DNA of 64,000 bases from the IMG/VR virus record IMGVR_UViG_3300021136_000003, positions 57,110 to 121,109 of that record; one strand, 5' to 3'. Positions 48,759 to 62,976 of this stretch are shown piece after piece (position 1 is the stretch's first letter; every line of letters begins with the position of its first letter). Below the pieces are notes generated by a model. The model made no database searches. It was not told where the DNA came from and saw only the letters and a program-made list of their open reading frames with translations. Origin of the DNA: a virus. The translations under genes and the position numbers were made by a program.

Positions 48759-48794
48759 TGCCTTTAATGTTTAATTGTTAATTGTTTCCAGAAT

Positions 48795-48802
48795 GATAAA
48801 TA
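48795..48802 (+). promoter_or_regulatory. GATAAATA octamer 5 bases before the HEG ATG
   Basis: It precedes the ATG at 48808 with AAGAC between and no ribosome-binding site. Confidence 0.45.
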
Positions 48803-48807
48803 AAGAC

Positions 48808-49674
48808 ATGAATTATTCTGAAGCATCTGTCTATTGGTTACACCTTATTGAACACACTGATCCATTGAATGAAGGTTACATTGGTGTTTCTAAGAATCCA
48901 GAATCCAGGATGGCTACTCATATTCGCAGAGCATCTGAAAATAGACATCATAATATTAATCTTATCGAAGCCATCCGGGACTATGGAAAAAATGCTATCA
49001 TCAAAGATATAATTATGACAGGACAAGAGGTATTTTGTTATGAGGTTGAGAATGACATGAGGCCTGGTCCGAACATAGGATGGAACATCGCTGAAGGCGG
49101 ACGTATGGGTGCAGGAGGAAGATTTGGGGTACCAAAAAATAAAAAACTACTTGAGCGGCGAAAGATTGAAAAAGAAAGAATAAACAAGGAGCGAAATGAC
49201 AGAATAGCAAATGGAATACCCACAGAATTGGATCGTAACTATCTACAAAAAGAGAAAGAAAAAGCAATACATAACAAAAAATATCAATTACATATGTCAG
49301 CAAACGAACCACTGACAGATTGTGCTTTGTATTTGAGACCCATCTGCCCTACATGTAATAAGAACTTCTGTGCGGTGAACTATATCCGTGCAGGAGTCAC
49401 ACACTATCGAAGTAGATGTGATGAGTGTGGCCGAAAGAAGGCCAATCTCCGGCCTCGTAAGGCGAACTGGCAACGAAGCAAGTATAAAAAGAAAGTAGTG
49501 TGTGACCTATGCGGTTTTCGCGCCATTTATCCAAGTCAACTTCTAGTTTATCACACTGATGGGAATCTGGAGAATATCGAACTGTCAAACCTGAGAACAA
49601 TTTGTCTGTGCTGTGTCGAGGTTGTCAAGCGCAAAGAGGTGACTTGGCGCCGGGGTGATCTTATAGTCGATTAA
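48808..49674 (+). CDS. GIY-YIG homing endonuclease with zinc-finger and HNH-like C-terminal half
   Basis: Start candidates are 48793 and 48808; 48808 (MNYSEASVYWLHLIEHTD) is chosen because the octamer pattern seen elsewhere ends there. VYWLHLIEHTD and GYIGVSKNPESRM form a GIY-YIG variant. A basic helical linker follows, then CPTCNKNFC and CDECGRKK zinc-binding pairs, then CDLCGFRAIYPSQLLVYHTDGN followed by LSNLRTICLCC, an HNH-type ββα-metal site. A two-nuclease-fold protein is unusual. It runs against its neighbours, overlapping the dNMP kinase 3' end by 14 bases. Confidence 0.78.
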   Translation: MNYSEASVYWLHLIEHTDPLNEGYIGVSKNPESRMATHIRRASENRHHNINLIEAIRDYGKNAIIKDIIMTGQEVFCYEVENDMRPGPNIGWNIAEGGRMGAGGRFGVPKNKKLLERRKIEKERINKERNDRIANGIPTELDRNYLQKEKEKAIHNKKYQLHMSANEPLTDCALYLRPICPTCNKNFCAVNYIRAGVTHYRSRCDECGRKKANLRPRKANWQRSKYKKKVVCDLCGFRAIYPSQLLVYHTDGNLENIELSNLRTICLCCVEVVKRKEVTWRRGDLIVD

Positions 49675-50362: not shown

Positions 50363-51127
50363 TTAACCGATTACCCAGGTTAGGGGTTGTGAATAGTCAA
50401 CGAAGCGTTTCAGGTCTTCTAAAAGAGTTTCTTTCATTTTCTCTCCGTCTGCTTTCATTGCTGCACCGTTGAGAGTGGTGCCGCCGCCTGGACCTGCGAT
50501 TGTGCTGAACTTTTCACGCGCACTACCAATGATGATCTTCAGTTCAGCAAGAGTCCAGTCACCGATCCATGGACCTGAACCCAAGTCTTGTAGCAGTGTT
50601 TCTTCTGTTTTCAGAACGTCGGCCCAGATAAGAATCTTCTCACCAGTCGATTTAGGGTCACGCACGATACGCAGCACTTTGCTGACTGGGTTGAAGGTAT
50701 AAATAACATATCCACCGAACATTCTTGCCGCTAACTCAACGTAGCCTGCATAGAAGTCATACGTTGCCAGACCACCTGCGGCGTTGTAGTTCAACAAATA
50801 TGTGTTAAGAATAGCACTGCTGAAAGGATCGAATGAGGATGATGAAGGGCCAGTATCAAGACCAACCGTGCGTCTGAATAACGATCTGACGTTGATGAAC
50901 TGCTCCGGAAGCGTGTATGTATCAACGTTGATTTCAGTGGTGAACAGAGTATACGTTTCTTCCGTGGCGTTCTGCGCCCGTTGACGATACACCTGAACGG
51001 CGTAATTGAATGCCGTCTCATAGTGAGCAGGATCGATTTCCAAATCGATAATCCCAGCACCAAGTCTGTTGCTGAGGTTATCGAATAGTTGTTGCTTGCG
51101 TTCTTCTAAAGTAAGTCCTGTTGCCAT
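50363..51127 (-). CDS. 13: Neck protein, T4 gp13-like
   Basis: The 254-residue protein starts MATGLTLEERKQQLFDNLSN and shows YAVQVYRQRAQNATEETYTL, TYTLPEQFINVRSLFRR, ATYDFYAGYVELAARMFGG, PWIGDWTLAELKIIIGSAR and EKFSTIAGPGGGTTLNG, a sequence order I know well from gp13 neck proteins of T4-like cyanophages. gp13 with gp14 closes the filled head and joins it to the tail. The start region (promoter, ribosome site and first seven codons) is duplicated 1.3 kb upstream at 52383-52431. Confidence 0.9.
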   Translation of the reverse strand: MATGLTLEERKQQLFDNLSNRLGAGIIDLEIDPAHYETAFNYAVQVYRQRAQNATEETYTLFTTEINVDTYTLPEQFINVRSLFRRTVGLDTGPSSSSFDPFSSAILNTYLLNYNAAGGLATYDFYAGYVELAARMFGGYVIYTFNPVSKVLRIVRDPKSTGEKILIWADVLKTEETLLQDLGSGPWIGDWTLAELKIIIGSAREKFSTIAGPGGGTTLNGAAMKADGEKMKETLLEDLKRFVDYSQPLTWVIG

Positions 51128-51144
51128 AGTATTTCCCTGATATT

Positions 51145-51792
51145 CTATTTATCAGTTCTTATGTGTGTCAGTATCAAGTCTGCAATAGCTGCATGCGAGA
51201 GAGGACCGGGGTGGATACCGTCTAGACCCTGATCTAGATTAACTGATGCGTCGAGGTATCTGATAGAACCGGTTAGTGGCAGTGGTAGGGCGGCGCCGGC
51301 AATAAAATTATGTAAATTTTCATCATTATAAAAATTATATACGGTTACGTTTTTATTTTCCAAATAGTTAGTTGAATGACCAATGTCCAGTAGAGTTCTC
51401 ACGCTTAAATCATATTCGGAATGGGCCATATAAAATTCTTTGCACAGATGCATCTGATTTTTTTCATTAGGGCCGAGGCGAATAATTTCCCCCACATCGT
51501 CAAATAGAATACTAAGATCAGAAATATTCCATAAAATAATAACAAGATCAGCAGTGCAGGTATCCGCGCTTAATACGTTTAATAAAATCTTTAAGTTCGG
51601 TGCGCCGCACTCGGCCCGATTATCACATTCTATATTCATAGCATCAGCTACTAAAGCCGGCCATGACAACCTACTAGGAGTCTGGCCTGAGCCAGCGGTG
51701 TCGAAGTTATAGCAATCGATTAAACCGTGTCCGAATGTTACGGATGCCCCGAACGCTATTAATCGCTTATAAGTGTTGTTTGATGATGTCAT
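51145..51792 (-). CDS. SGNH/GDSL-family hydrolase, copy 2
   Basis: The 215-residue protein reads RLIAFGASVTFGHGL, the SGNH block I with the nucleophile Ser (GAS in place of GDS), an IILWNISDLS block and DGIHPGPLSHAAIADLIL, the DxxH block V. The family hydrolyses acyl esters on lipids or sugars, e.g. O-acetyl groups on polysaccharides. It overlaps the first copy by 26 bases and together they form a two-gene cassette with a slightly lower GC content than the neighbouring neck gene. Likely a host-surface or exopolysaccharide-modifying function (inference). Confidence 0.75.
   Translation of the reverse strand: MTSSNNTYKRLIAFGASVTFGHGLIDCYNFDTAGSGQTPSRLSWPALVADAMNIECDNRAECGAPNLKILLNVLSADTCTADLVIILWNISDLSILFDDVGEIIRLGPNEKNQMHLCKEFYMAHSEYDLSVRTLLDIGHSTNYLENKNVTVYNFYNDENLHNFIAGAALPLPLTGSIRYLDASVNLDQGLDGIHPGPLSHAAIADLILTHIRTDK
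51146..51153 (-). promoter_or_regulatory. T4-type late promoter of gp13
   Basis: GATAAATA lies 18 bases before the gp13 ATG with AGGGA in the leader. It overlaps the stop codon of SGNH copy 2. Confidence 0.6.
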
Positions 51793-52382: not shown

Positions 52383-52418
52383 TTAAATAACACCTTTTAA
52401 AGTGAGTCCTGTTGCCAT
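52383..52418 (-). pseudogene. Vestigial gp13 start (11-codon remnant)
   Basis: The frame reads MATGLTLKGVI then stop; the first seven codons match the real gp13 start at 51127 and the ribosome-site region (AAGGAAAATACT) matches too. The similarity covers about 52396-52431 against 51106-51140. It indicates that the SGNH cassette was placed between a gp13 start and a second copy of it. Confidence 0.75.
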
Positions 52419-52431
52419 AGTATTTTCCTTG

Positions 52432-52961
52432 ATTTTTCATCCCGGATCTATTCATTTATTCACGCATCTTAACACAGACCCTACGGGTCTTTAACCCTTC
52501 GCTTTTTCGCTCGGGTCTTTTTAATGATATCTTAAACGGGGACTTCACATCTATTCTTAGGCATGGCGAGTAGATATAAATCCACTACGCCATAGGTCTA
52601 TTCTTGAGGCCCGAAGGTGCGACGATGAATTCAAATATTATAGTGGAGGATTGTCTATGTCTCACTAACCATTTCTGGGATTTGCTGTATTCGCTGTTAT
52701 GTTGAACCGTGGTTCATCGAGGAGATTCAACCAGCCCACGCCCTCTACCGCAATTACTCTGGCGTGACAAACTTTTCGTAGATTACTCTATCACAACCGT
52801 TAAGGTATAGGAAACGTGAACTGCTGTGAGCAGGCGTTTAGGCATCCCGAAGGGTAGTCCTATAAATTTAGCGTTGGCGCGCTTCTACCGTCACACCATG
52901 GGTTGAGGACGAGGTTGTAGGACACTTCGAGGTGTGCCGACCTATTGCCAAGTTATTACTG
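52432..52961 (-). ncRNA. Candidate large structured noncoding RNA (strand inferred)
   Basis: This 530-base stretch holds no credible ORF but many perfect helices: TATAGG/CCTATA (52806-52811 with 52859-52864) enclosing AAACG/CGTTT (52812-52816, 52835-52839) with CTGCT/AGCAG inside and a CCC/GGG hairpin, i.e. a three-way junction; CACGCC/GGCGTG (52737-52742, 52761-52766); TAGTG/CACTA (52641-52645, 52663-52667); GTTGAA/TTCAAC (52701-52706, 52726-52731); AGGT/ACCT plus GGACAC/GTGTgCC near 52912-52943; and a 12-bp hairpin at 52563-52594. Two C(UUCG)G loops appear only when read on the minus strand, which favours that strand. No group I core, tRNA or tmRNA motif was found. Confidence 0.55.
52476..52522 (+). 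terminator. Paired hairpins with T run at the edge of the structured region
   Basis: GACCC (52477-52481) can pair with GGGTC at 52485-52489 or at 52513-52517, the latter followed by five T on the plus strand. It may be a terminator or a switching hairpin; its owner is unclear. Confidence 0.35.
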
Positions 52962-53180
52962 CTATTGCACTAACTTAAAGATCAGGAACAGATCCTTGAG
53001 GGGATGATTCCATGGATCCTTCACACCGAAAGCGATATGACCACCGCGAGTATCCATGTCGATAACATCCTTACCCTTAATAACGGTCGACTTGTCAATG
53101 CAGGTCAATTCAGTTCCGTCGGGGAGTTTGTTGTATTCTTCCTCATTGAAGAGGACAAGATCGTCATCCCATTTAATCAT
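52962..53180 (-). CDS. Small phage protein of unknown function
   Basis: The 72-residue acidic protein (MIKWDDDLVLFNEEEYNKL ... LFLIFKLVQ) is probably a small beta-rich fold. It starts one base into the stop region of the MazG-like gene and ends at the edge of the structured noncoding stretch. No family motif was recognised. Confidence 0.58.
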   Translation of the reverse strand: MIKWDDDLVLFNEEEYNKLPDGTELTCIDKSTVIKGKDVIDMDTRGGHIAFGVKDPWNHPLKDLFLIFKLVQ

Positions 53181-53611
53181 TAGATGTCGCCTTCTTTGCG
53201 AGTCTCGCTGGCAGCAGCGGAGAATGTTCCGCCCGGGTAGCGTGATTGTAGTTTTGAAACATTGAGAGCGATCACATCGTTAGGGTTAACGCCGAGTGCC
53301 CGACAAGTGTTGGTCCAGTACCAGATTACATCACCCAATTCTTTGACCAGATGAGCATGGACCTCTTCATTCAGTTCTTTGCCATGAAATAAAACCTTCT
53401 TGACAATCTCACTGAATTCACCGGCTTCGCCACACAAACCCATAGCACCAGTAATCAGCAAAGGCACATTCACATCGGGACCATACTTATCTTGATTGGC
53501 ATCATAATTCGCATCAACCCTGGATATTGAGTTGGTGAATGATGTTAGATCATTGCTTGCTTGGCTTGTAATAGCCTCGACAAATTCGGTATACTTATTC
53601 AGATCGATCAT
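53180..53611 (-). CDS. mazG: MazG-like nucleoside triphosphate pyrophosphohydrolase
   Basis: The 143-residue protein has GLCGEAGEFSEIVKK (EExxE-type metal site near residue 58), then HLVKELGDVIWYW with the ExxD half and NVSKLQSRYPGGTFS at the C terminus, the all-alpha NTP pyrophosphohydrolase fold. MazG-type genes are frequent in cyanophage-like T4 relatives. Proposed roles include degrading non-canonical dNTPs or altering (p)ppGpp-related nucleotides, though phage MazG prefers dGTP and dCTP where tested. It is compatible in theme with the MESH1-type domain at 8398-10815. Confidence 0.9.
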   Translation of the reverse strand: MIDLNKYTEFVEAITSQASNDLTSFTNSISRVDANYDANQDKYGPDVNVPLLITGAMGLCGEAGEFSEIVKKVLFHGKELNEEVHAHLVKELGDVIWYWTNTCRALGVNPNDVIALNVSKLQSRYPGGTFSAAASETRKEGDI

Positions 53612-53666: not shown

Positions 53667-53745
53667 AATAAATAAAAGTGAGAGTCGCGGCTGGCAGGCC
53701 CACCCTCTCTAACGCCGTGAAAGGGCATCAGCATGTGTATTTATT
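53667..53745 (+). promoter_or_regulatory. Structured HEG leader, copy B
   Basis: AATAAATA, the stem GAGAG/CTCTC (53680-53684 with 53705-53709), the hairpin GCC/GGC (53714-53716 with 53724-53726) with GAAAG in its loop, then the ATG at 53733 and TATTTAT complementary to the 5' end. Differs from copy A in loop sequence but keeps both stems. Confidence 0.75.
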
Positions 53746-54455
53746 GTGGAACAACTAAGTATCGTAAAATATACGAGAACCATATCGGTCCGATCCCAAA
53801 AGATGTAACCGGACGCACATATGACATTCATCATTTAGATGGTGATCGTACTAACAATGGCCCATCTAATTTAGCAGCCCTAAGTATCCAGGAGCATTAT
53901 GATATTCATTATAGGCAATCAGACTTCGGAGCATGTCTGCTTATAGGGCGCAAAATGACAATGCCTGCAGAAATATTATCTGAACTCAACCGGGCTAGAA
54001 ATTTACAACAAGTGATTAATGGTACACATCCATGGCAGACAAGACCGGATGGAACAAATGTACAAACTGATCGTGTAACGAAAGGAACACATCCATGGCA
54101 AACTAGACCGGACGGTAGTAATCATAATATTGATCGTGTACTGAATAAAACACACAATCTCCTTAAGAGGGAAGATGGTTCTAGTGTTAGTAAAACCAAA
54201 ACATTAATACCGGGATATGTCAATCCTTTTTCACGCAAACCGGATGGCACATCCCCTTTTGCTGGGCGAAGGCACCACAGTTATGATCACACAATATATG
54301 GTTTTAGGCATAAAGATACAGGAGAGGAAGTTTTTACAACTCGTCACGATTTTTATACCAGTCATAAATTGGAATCGCGCAACGTCAATAAGATGGTGCG
54401 CGGTGCCGTAAGGACAGTGAAGGGTTGGCAGTTGATTACGACGCCTTCAAAATAA
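53733..54455 (+). CDS. HNH homing endonuclease with internal WQTRPDG repeats
   Basis: The 240-residue protein starts CIYCGTTKYRKIYENH and has YDIHHLDGDRTNNGPSNL followed by LSIQEHYDIHY, a full HNH motif. The middle contains two copies of GTHPWQTRPDG followed by further xRxDG(S/T) variants, probably a DNA-contacting array. The C-terminal YDHTIYGFRHKDTGEE ... GAVRTVKGWQL is the module shared with the GIY-YIG proteins. The 3' end overlaps the convergent gene at 54436 by 20 bases. Its leader is copy B. Confidence 0.85.
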   Translation: MCIYCGTTKYRKIYENHIGPIPKDVTGRTYDIHHLDGDRTNNGPSNLAALSIQEHYDIHYRQSDFGACLLIGRKMTMPAEILSELNRARNLQQVINGTHPWQTRPDGTNVQTDRVTKGTHPWQTRPDGSNHNIDRVLNKTHNLLKREDGSSVSKTKTLIPGYVNPFSRKPDGTSPFAGRRHHSYDHTIYGFRHKDTGEEVFTTRHDFYTSHKLESRNVNKMVRGAVRTVKGWQLITTPSK

Positions 54456-56374: not shown

Positions 56375-56431
56375 TTCCTACTCCTTCTTTCTACACTTTC
56401 AGTGTAACAGATTACGGGTTTATTGTCAAGT

Positions 56432-56439
56432 GATAAATA
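56432..56439 (+). promoter_or_regulatory. GATAAATA octamer 4 bases before the HEG ATG
   Basis: It precedes the ATG at 56444 with CTCT between; no ribosome site. The same spacing occurs at 6715 and 38497. Confidence 0.48.
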
Positions 56440-56443
56440 CTCT

Positions 56444-57106
56444 ATGCACATATTTGGCCGACAACACACCAAAGAAGGATTTTATGTATACGCCTATTTG
56501 CGAGAATCCGGCACGCCATACTATATCGGAAAGGGCATTGGCAAACGAGCAACCGAAAAGCACAGCATTCCGCTGCCAGCCGATAGAAACAGGATAATAG
56601 TCATCGCAACCGGACTAACTGAGTTATGGGCATATGCTCTGGAGCGAAGATTGATAAGATGGTATGGTAGAAAAGATAATCTCACTGGGATTCTGCACAA
56701 TAGAACTGATGGTGGAGAAGGTAAAGCAGGGTGTCCTTGGGATACAACCTTATATACATTTTTTCACTCTGATGGAAGAGTTGAGCATTGTACGAGATAT
56801 GACATGGTCAAAAAACATTCATTGAATATTTCTGGTGTTACGGGATTGGTTACTAATAAAGCAAAGACACATCGCGGATGGAGACTAACTCCAGAAAAAC
56901 AAAAATGGAATATTACCAGGTTTGGCGGGAACAATCCCAATTTCGATCTAACTATCTATTCTTTCGTTCACCAAAATGGTGAAAAGGAAAGTTGCACCCA
57001 ATCCGAACTCACTAAAAAATATAACCTCAACATTACAAGTATGAGCAGTGTCGTCAACCATAAACAACTTCGCGTCGGAGGATGGTGTTTACTAACAAAT
57101 ACATAA
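56444..57106 (+). CDS. GIY-YIG homing endonuclease with two copies of the C-terminal module
   Basis: The start is placed at the ATG at 56444 ([10 protein letters not shown]); a TTG at 56423 would extend it through the promoter. The core is [35 protein letters not shown] and NRTDGGEG. The rest consists of two tandem copies of the module otherwise found once in the 4722, 16950, 20143 and 53733 proteins: [13 protein letters not shown] ... HRGWRL and [13 protein letters not shown] ... VGGWCL. Its stop TAA lies within CATAAATA directly before gp14. Confidence 0.85.
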
Positions 57107-61715: not shown

Positions 61716-62897
61716 TTAAGAGTTATTAACAGTAATCACTCCGTACGGTTGACTTGGCGTTGCATTTGCTGCAATCGCTGCGTTAAACGATGCGTAGTAT
61801 GCTGTAGCAGTATCAGTGTTACCAAATCCTCTGGCTGTATGATCAGCTAATCTTTCTAATAATACAGTTGCCGGTGCCGCTGTTGTTGCAGAGACTCGCA
61901 TTGTGCCGGGCACAAGTGCTGCTGCTGCTAAATCTGCTGTGTAGCAAACACCAGTTAGACCTGAAGTCAGACCAGTTACAAGGAACTTGCTACGACCTTT
62001 TTGTCTGACGATGAAACCAGATTCGTTATCAGCATATGTCCAAGCAGACAGTGCATAATGTTGCGGAGTGATAGCGCCCATCACGACATAATCTTGATGA
62101 CCAGTCACAACTGCTGAATCATCAGCAAGCGTTACTAAAGAACCGTTGCGCTGCATACTGACAGTAAAATCTGTCACACTCAGAATATCACGAACCCAAT
62201 ACACTGTGCCGGCTGTTAAATTACCGATATCAGCATTGAACACGATTGGTTGAAGAGCGTTCATTGCTGCTGTGCTAACTGCAACAACAATACTACCGAC
62301 TGCTTCTGTATCTGTAACTGCGACTACGATGTAGCCAGGAATCACTGCGACATGACCTGCTATAGTGCCGTCTGCCAGTTCAACTGACGATCCAACTGAC
62401 AACGTGTTAGCAAAGTCTGTACCAGCGCCCCACATTTCTTTACCAGCCGTACCGTTCAATGTTACTGTTCCGGCGCCCACGCGACCGATAGCAACATCAG
62501 CAAGAACTTGCTTGCCATAGCTTCCGGTGTTGCCACCGACAACGCTGTATGTGTTAGCTGCACCATTTGGATTGTTGAAACCATAGTCAACTAAATTGAC
62601 AGTGAAACCAACAGTGACCGGGCCGACTGTGCCAAGTGCAAGCGGTGTCCTATTGATATTAGCATCTAACGGGGTCGAGCTTAACGTCATAGACGATGTG
62701 CTTGGCATAGTTAGTACCCAATATGTTGTTCCGGCGATGATGTTACTGACGGTAGTTGATACAACGACAGGCATGCCTACAGTGAAGTTAACAGTAGCAG
62801 TTATAGCAGGGATGAAAGTAACGATGTTTGTACCGGTTGTTGTTCCGGTGATTGTGCCAACGAATTGTGATTTGGCGATTTTAAGAGGGCGTCCCAT
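61716..62897 (-). CDS. Virion structural protein with repeated beta modules
   Basis: The 393-residue protein starts MGRPLKIAKSQFVGTITGTT and contains two modules of the form NIIAGTTYWVLTMPSTSS and NLTAGTVYWVRDILSVTD, each a beta domain also found in 23109 and 24140. The C-terminal 150 residues are ordered (KEMWGAGTDFAN, YALSAWTYADNESGFIVRQK, GVCYTADLAAAALVPG). I recall MGRPLKI-starting proteins as common virion structural proteins of cyanophage-like phages. A leader of about 90 bases with a perfect hairpin precedes it. Confidence 0.72.
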   Translation of the reverse strand: MGRPLKIAKSQFVGTITGTTTGTNIVTFIPAITATVNFTVGMPVVVSTTVSNIIAGTTYWVLTMPSTSSMTLSSTPLDANINRTPLALGTVGPVTVGFTVNLVDYGFNNPNGAANTYSVVGGNTGSYGKQVLADVAIGRVGAGTVTLNGTAGKEMWGAGTDFANTLSVGSSVELADGTIAGHVAVIPGYIVVAVTDTEAVGSIVVAVSTAAMNALQPIVFNADIGNLTAGTVYWVRDILSVTDFTVSMQRNGSLVTLADDSAVVTGHQDYVVMGAITPQHYALSAWTYADNESGFIVRQKGRSKFLVTGLTSGLTGVCYTADLAAAALVPGTMRVSATTAAPATVLLERLADHTARGFGNTDTATAYYASFNAAIAANATPSQPYGVITVNNS

Positions 62898-62959
62898 TTG
62901 TTTTTCCTTTAGGTTGTGTGGAGTTCTAGTCCTACGCTGTGGGTTACAGCATAAACTCT

Positions 62960-62976
62960 CAGAATGAGAGTGTATG
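62960..62976 (-). promoter_or_regulatory. Leader hairpin before the 393-residue virion gene
   Basis: ACTCTC/GAGAGT form a 6-bp stem with an ATTCT loop, just downstream of the GATAAATA octamer at 62981-62988, i.e. at the extreme 5' end of the expected late mRNA. Such 5' hairpins often stabilise T4 late transcripts. Confidence 0.5.

Follow-up and report, generated by a model that had tools for sequence, protein, structure and literature searches.

A conserved, pseudoknotted noncoding RNA of about 400 nucleotides in uncultured T4-type jumbo phages

To our knowledge, few large structured RNA classes of bacteria or phages reach the complexity of the RNA described here, and the phage ones, GOLLD and ROOL, have no agreed function. 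GOLLD is often longer than 800 nt and the ROOL RNA env-120 measures 659 nt; both have been studied by cryo-EM (PMC12286853). One GOLLD was reported to be dispensable for phage production, and phage ICP1 carries an abundant noncoding RNA of about 800 nt (PMC7567579). The present RNA shares with GOLLD a large size, pseudoknots, a phage origin and the lack of an ORF, and with ROOL a phage-encoded, structured sequence with multiple pseudoknots and without known protein partner. Like the ICP1 RNA it is long and comes from a region of a lytic phage genome that has no ORF, and the group I introns of T4-type phages are comparable to it in size, pseudoknotted core and the presence of homing endonucleases nearby. 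However, it is only about 400 nt long, GOLLD differs from it in sequence and fold, and both GOLLD and ROOL often lie near tRNA islands, whereas ARAGORN detected no tRNA or tmRNA in the window (the whole stretch of 64,000 nucleotides analysed here, part of a 121-kb virus record) and none in 17 member loci. The ICP1 RNA is about twice as long, and a scan of the complete ICP1 record with model R1 of the present RNA gave no match. Unlike group I introns, the RNA is intergenic and shows another helix order.

The RNA and, unless stated otherwise, all the features given below lie on the minus strand of the window. The RNA is preceded by a gene for a MazG-like pyrophosphatase (53180-53611, Pfam MazG), a conserved upstream neighbour, and by orf72 (52962-53180, PHROG 34791), which has homologues at many loci. 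Its usual downstream neighbour encodes a gp13-like neck protein, or head-tail adaptor Ad2 (50363-51127, PHROG 211, E = 1.3e-24). The initial annotation had described the gap 52432-52961 as an ORF-free stretch and as a candidate large noncoding RNA of 530 bases, comparable in size to GOLLD and ROOL. Indeed, neither strand of 52401-52961 contains an ORF that reaches 40 aa. The conserved RNA itself was delimited to about 52552-52954 with an alignment of 40 distinct homologues (A1), whose flanks could not be aligned. Its 5' end is located 8 nt past the orf72 stop, and positions 52432-52551 are an unconserved spacer ending beside a 36-base remnant of the start of the neck gene. The annotated extent was therefore too large by this spacer, and the RNA, at about 400 nt, is below the sizes of ROOL env-120 and GOLLD. 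No reading frame is shared across the 40 homologues, the longest ORFs inside the members having 28 to 83 codons (33 in the window). Together with extensive compensatory changes, this establishes that the minus-strand RNA is a conserved, noncoding structure, as the annotation had proposed. With conserved structure, no coding capacity and a location in phage genomes, it can be placed in a loosely defined group, the large structured noncoding RNAs of phages.

Homologues were obtained in two ways. Relatives of the neck protein and of MazG were pulled from IMG/VR, and BLASTN of the gap against them revealed in nine loci a block of 340-415 nt, 68-80% identical, at a constant place and on a constant strand, with nothing alignable outside it. 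A 17-base invariant stretch, GACATAGACAATCCTCC, was used as query for a scan of IMG/VR independent of gene context, which returned at least 80 matching stretches; a profile search confirmed at least 73 of these as true members. Searches with loop-variant motifs added five further members, whereas the 16-base motif GTAATAGTGATAGAGG gave no new one and motif GACATAGTCAATCCTCC nothing new except L317 and L320. The RNA is present in at least about 78 other IMG/VR contigs, nearly all of them belonging to an uncultured clade of T4-type jumbo phages, a distribution skewed to copies retaining the few motifs that seeded the searches. BLASTN against 50,697 phage records produced only 25-base chance matches with the window copy and none with four divergent members, and the RNA was not seen in the isolates searched. 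Another 31 matches of the 17-base motif, in genome_contigs, were rejected as chance, being fragments only (best full-model score among those scored, 22.8 bits).

We then compared the RNA with known families. Rfam 15 (4227 families) gave no match in the gap, whether the gathering score or E <= 10 was taken as threshold, and 11 further member loci yielded none at E <= 5. The models without a match in the window region and these 11 loci include GOLLD, ROOL, RNase P RNA, phi29-type packaging RNA and the conserved P3-P8 core of group I introns. At the loci examined, the RNA sits between complete genes and splits none. The Rfam check named in the initial annotation (GOLLD, ROOL, group I intron, tmRNA, RNase P) was thus negative, and its hint of kinship with GOLLD or ROOL finds no support in sequence or covariance model. 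A literature search, with subscription papers and preprints mostly outside its range, found no published description of the RNA. Taken with the lack of Rfam and ARAGORN matches, this indicates a new class within that loosely defined group; judged by these comparisons, it is unrelated to the Rfam families.

The structure was deduced from the 40 aligned sequences by RNAalifold and an APC-corrected mutual-information scan, with crossing helices included. The combined model contains 85 pairs in 20 helices, which interlock as pseudoknots: helix PA crosses a hairpin whose loop contains its 3' strand, PK1 lies inside hairpin 1, PK2 joins the H4 loop to the stretch after P5, and PK3 joins the H3 loop to the 3' end. 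Standard pairs were found in 94.0% of 3350 cells, against 81.9 +/- 0.4% in shuffled alignments and at most 45% in slid ones; as the pairs were chosen and counted on the same alignment, with the shuffles and slides as controls, the paired percentages lean towards the model. Both-sided, compensatory changes occurred in 58 of the 85 pairs. The covariation score was 0.374 compared to 0.157 for the shuffles, none of which scored as high, and sliding the partner columns by 1-3 positions reduced it to 0.084 or less. Both the homologues and the covariation that the initial annotation had named as checks were therefore found, the former noncoding and the latter strong. When the alignment was read as the minus strand of the window, G-U/U-G cells (157) exceeded A-C/C-A cells (60), which settles this as the RNA strand. 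Single-sequence folding was discarded as a proof of structure, because the minimum free energy of the minus strand (-154.5 kcal/mol, z = -1.65; plus strand, z = -0.33) was poorly separated from that of shuffled sequences. Folding energy alone is insufficient to settle the structure, and it is the homologues that decide.

The 5' domain is closed by helix PA (52874-52952), in which CUUG (52949-52952) pairs with CCAA (52874-52877). PA is 85% paired and shows compensatory changes in three of its four pairs, UUGGUC:GACCAA being replaced by UUAGUC:GACUAA or CUGAUUA:UAAUCAG; the hairpin that it crosses is formed by 52880-52882 and 52871-52873. Covariation revealed an H-type pseudoknot at 52920-52943, in which the pairing of AGGU (52940-52943) with ACCU (52930-52933) interleaves with the hairpin 52934-52938/52920-52925 (90.6% and 78.8% paired). 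Helix H1 (52888-52912) is 99.2% paired. The three-way junction domain H2 (52806-52864) corresponds to model helices 7, 9 and 10 (including 52858-52864 with 52806-52812, and 52829-52838 with 52813-52824), its main stem being 100% and two of its arms 97.5 and 95.5% paired, with compensatory changes in 11 of 15 pairs among the 40 homologues. The hairpin of its CCC/GGG arm, located between these helices (52852-52854 with 52846-52848), is 85% paired. H2 matches base by base the three-way junction that had been noticed at 52806-52864 in the initial annotation. The perfect stems reported there also exist, and so does a UUCG loop on the minus strand, although some homologues lack this loop. Between H2 and H3, some members, the window copy among them, carry an extra GNRA-capped hairpin with a covarying stem.

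Hairpin H3 (52736-52767, UCACGCC...GGCGUGG) is paired in 100% of cases and has compensatory changes in six of seven pairs, for example CCGGGUC/GGGCCCGG versus CCAAAAG/UACUUUUGG. It is followed by H4 (52693-52735), 91-100% paired, with compensatory changes in 9 of 11 pairs. The H4 loop engages in PK2 (52623-52719), where CGAUGAA (52713-52719) pairs with UUCAUCG (52623-52629); this helix is 99.6% paired, with compensatory changes in four of seven pairs, and direct reading of the alignment shows it swapped for CCGUGGUGG:CCGCCACGG in the divergent member L190. Domain P5 (52632-52684) consists of hairpins H5a and H5b, 91-97% paired. The 12-nt loop of H5b (52648-52659), CAUAGACAAUCC, is invariant across the aligned set, and the variants GAUAUAGUCAA and GACAUAGUCAA were found in L316-L320.

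The near-invariant 3' strand AUCUACUCGCC has two partners. It can form a local hairpin (52569-52587, AGUGGAU/AUCUACU), which has 6-11 bp in 38 of the 40 members, and its UCGCC part pairs with the H3 loop in the long-range pseudoknot PK3 (UCGCCA at 52564-52569 with UGCGG at 52748-52752). PK3 comprises four pairs, 100% paired, with changes from CG to UA and from UA to AU. In members with an 11-bp hairpin, the full forms of the local hairpin and PK3 are mutually exclusive. In the model, AUCUACUCGCC may thus act as a conformational switch between the two pairings; alternatively, a plain, shorter hairpin may be stacked on PK3. A candidate terminal helix (UAGG:CCUA) is 93% paired and competes with PK1. 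It has two pairs with compensatory changes, a count matched by 106 of 500 shuffles, and was kept out of the model.

We next examined how the RNA is maintained. Over 435 locus pairs, its mean identity was 76.6%, against 69.8% for the neck gene at the nucleotide level and 43% at the four-fold degenerate sites of that gene, and it was more identical than the neck gene in 92% of the pairs. This noncoding sequence is thus under strong purifying selection. When presence and absence of the RNA were mapped on a tree of 103 neck proteins, at least 15 changes were required, six of them forced by well supported branches. Within the uncultured clade, the members that branch off deepest carry the RNA, so that ancestral presence followed by many losses is the simplest reading. 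RNA and neck distances were correlated (Mantel r = 0.39, reached in 0 of 2000 permutations), which suggests that inheritance was vertical at least in part. L005, L007 and L008, which are closest to the window, are without the RNA, and no copy turned up elsewhere in those RNA-less relatives whose contigs are long. Likewise, four of four isolated Rak2/121Q-type jumbo phages (121Q, Muenster, XaC1 and Atu_ph07) leave no room for it upstream of the neck gene, and the RNA model found no match in the whole genomes of 121Q and Atu_ph07; the order neck - dNMP kinase - sheath is kept in three of the four. The RNA is therefore accessory in its clade, occurring in several phage lineages and, in the main clade, at one position of the syntenic region.

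The usual gene order is g410 - (SGNH genes) - MazG - orf72 - RNA - neck - dNMP kinase - endonuclease - sheath, and the neck gene is downstream of the RNA in nearly all loci. In the window, two SGNH/GDSL-type genes separate them. These lie between the neck gene and the remnant duplicate of its start (52394-52429, 36 nt with the RBS and ATGGCAACAGGACTCACT, 91.7% identical to about 51107-51142), as though inserted with a short duplication. In L012, among other loci, an SGNH relative precedes mazG, suggesting that such genes move about. By sequence reading, the neck gene has a T4-type late promoter motif, GATAAATA (51146-51153), which is located between the RNA and the neck ATG in most homologous loci, is also present in RNA-less relatives, and never occurs within 120 bases upstream of the RNA. 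In most homologous loci it is embedded in a short inverted repeat (CCTGATAAATA..ATATCAGG). In about one third of the distinct loci, the mazG unit ends in a hairpin-plus-T terminator immediately ahead of the RNA. The window has a sigma-70-like promoter ahead of mazG and no detectable promoter or terminator dedicated to the RNA, promoter matches being no commoner than in shuffled sequence. Two diverged copies are present on a 277-kb contig (L313, about 8468, and L314, about 8236), one upstream of the neck gene and preceded by a strong terminator then TATACT, the other elsewhere, near an amidoligase-like gene. The RNA of L144, L137, L180 and L320 belongs to a different phage type, in which the terminase large subunit gene (TerL) lies 2.2-4 kb downstream in L144, L137 and L320; the contig of L180 stops 107 bases past the RNA.

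We favour, with a probability of about 0.62, a new RNA class of about 400 nt, with a compact pseudoknotted body and an exposed near-invariant loop, that would be free-standing, act in trans and bring a conditional advantage. At least four interlocking helices would make up this body, with the 12-nt loop exposed. Transcription would come from upstream, either together with mazG/orf72 or through a promoter of the RNA itself, and the RNA would persist independently of the neck mRNA. Its action in trans would be that of a scaffold, an enzyme or a binding partner, either as bare RNA or together with a protein bound at the invariant loop, and would help the phage in infection under certain conditions without being essential, as has been proposed for GOLLD and ROOL. 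By analogy with these, the likeliest role is that of a scaffold or RNP aiding infection under some conditions. The terminators directly upstream argue for the RNA as a unit of its own, and the repeated changes on the tree, without a copy elsewhere in RNA-less relatives, for its dispensability. A new activity or assembly mode, such as a trans-acting ribozyme, an RNA-only oligomer or a part in head or tail assembly that is kept near the morphogenesis genes, is a more tentative proposal, and such a class could use the two pairings of its 3' strand as a conformational switch.

The strong tie to the neck gene counts against action in trans and could reflect a cis role. The RNA might indeed be a leader, the 5' UTR of a late head-completion operon that times or tunes expression of neck, dNMP kinase and sheath, for instance by switching of AUCUACUCGCC between its hairpin and PK3, as the conserved position and the mutually exclusive pairings would suggest. 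However, the late promoter follows the RNA in most loci and persists in relatives without it, and many close relatives lack the RNA. The two intervening genes of the window, the TerL-type copies and the extra copy of the 277-kb contig, with their other neighbours, further argue against a leader, which we consider unlikely. Given the patchy loss and the position of the late promoter, a leader of the neck mRNA is less likely than a free-standing, trans-acting, dispensable RNA.

Patchy presence, a compact multi-pseudoknot core, nearby HNH and GIY-YIG type genes in the window and the second copy in one contig are also what one would expect of a ribozyme or a degenerate intron-like mobile RNA, processing itself or its transcript and spread with the help of neighbouring homing endonucleases. 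Nevertheless, the RNA matches no ribozyme or intron family, interrupts no gene, has a helix order unlike that of group I introns (as deduced from their established topology), and shows no fixed target site when filled and empty sites are compared, while the tree and the Mantel correlation fit ancestral presence with losses. This origin is thus doubtful. The location in the morphogenesis region, and upstream of terminase genes in the other phage type, would suit a DNA-level element (packaging signal, origin or recombination site) with its inverted repeats as cruciforms, but the G-U excess on one strand, the pseudoknots and invariant loops, which are RNA features, and the many relatives without the sequence make this very improbable. 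As for a decayed or recoded protein gene, 400 gene-less bases are rare in phage genomes, but the absence of a common frame and the paired, compensatory rather than codon-like substitutions leave this idea scarcely credible. For this RNA class, the near-complete comparative model, the many natural variants and the natural absences provide material for probing, cryo-EM and genetics, and the covariance model can be used for annotating phage genomes.

Three genes of the window run on the plus strand, against the local direction: 53733-54455, 48775-49674 and 56423-57106. The first encodes an HNH endonuclease, the second matches GIY-YIG weakly, and the last has no Pfam match. Elsewhere in the window, an Rfam freshwater-2 cis-regulatory RNA (RF02980, 57.2 bits) was identified at 62895-62971 on the minus strand, just upstream of the ORF 61716-62897.
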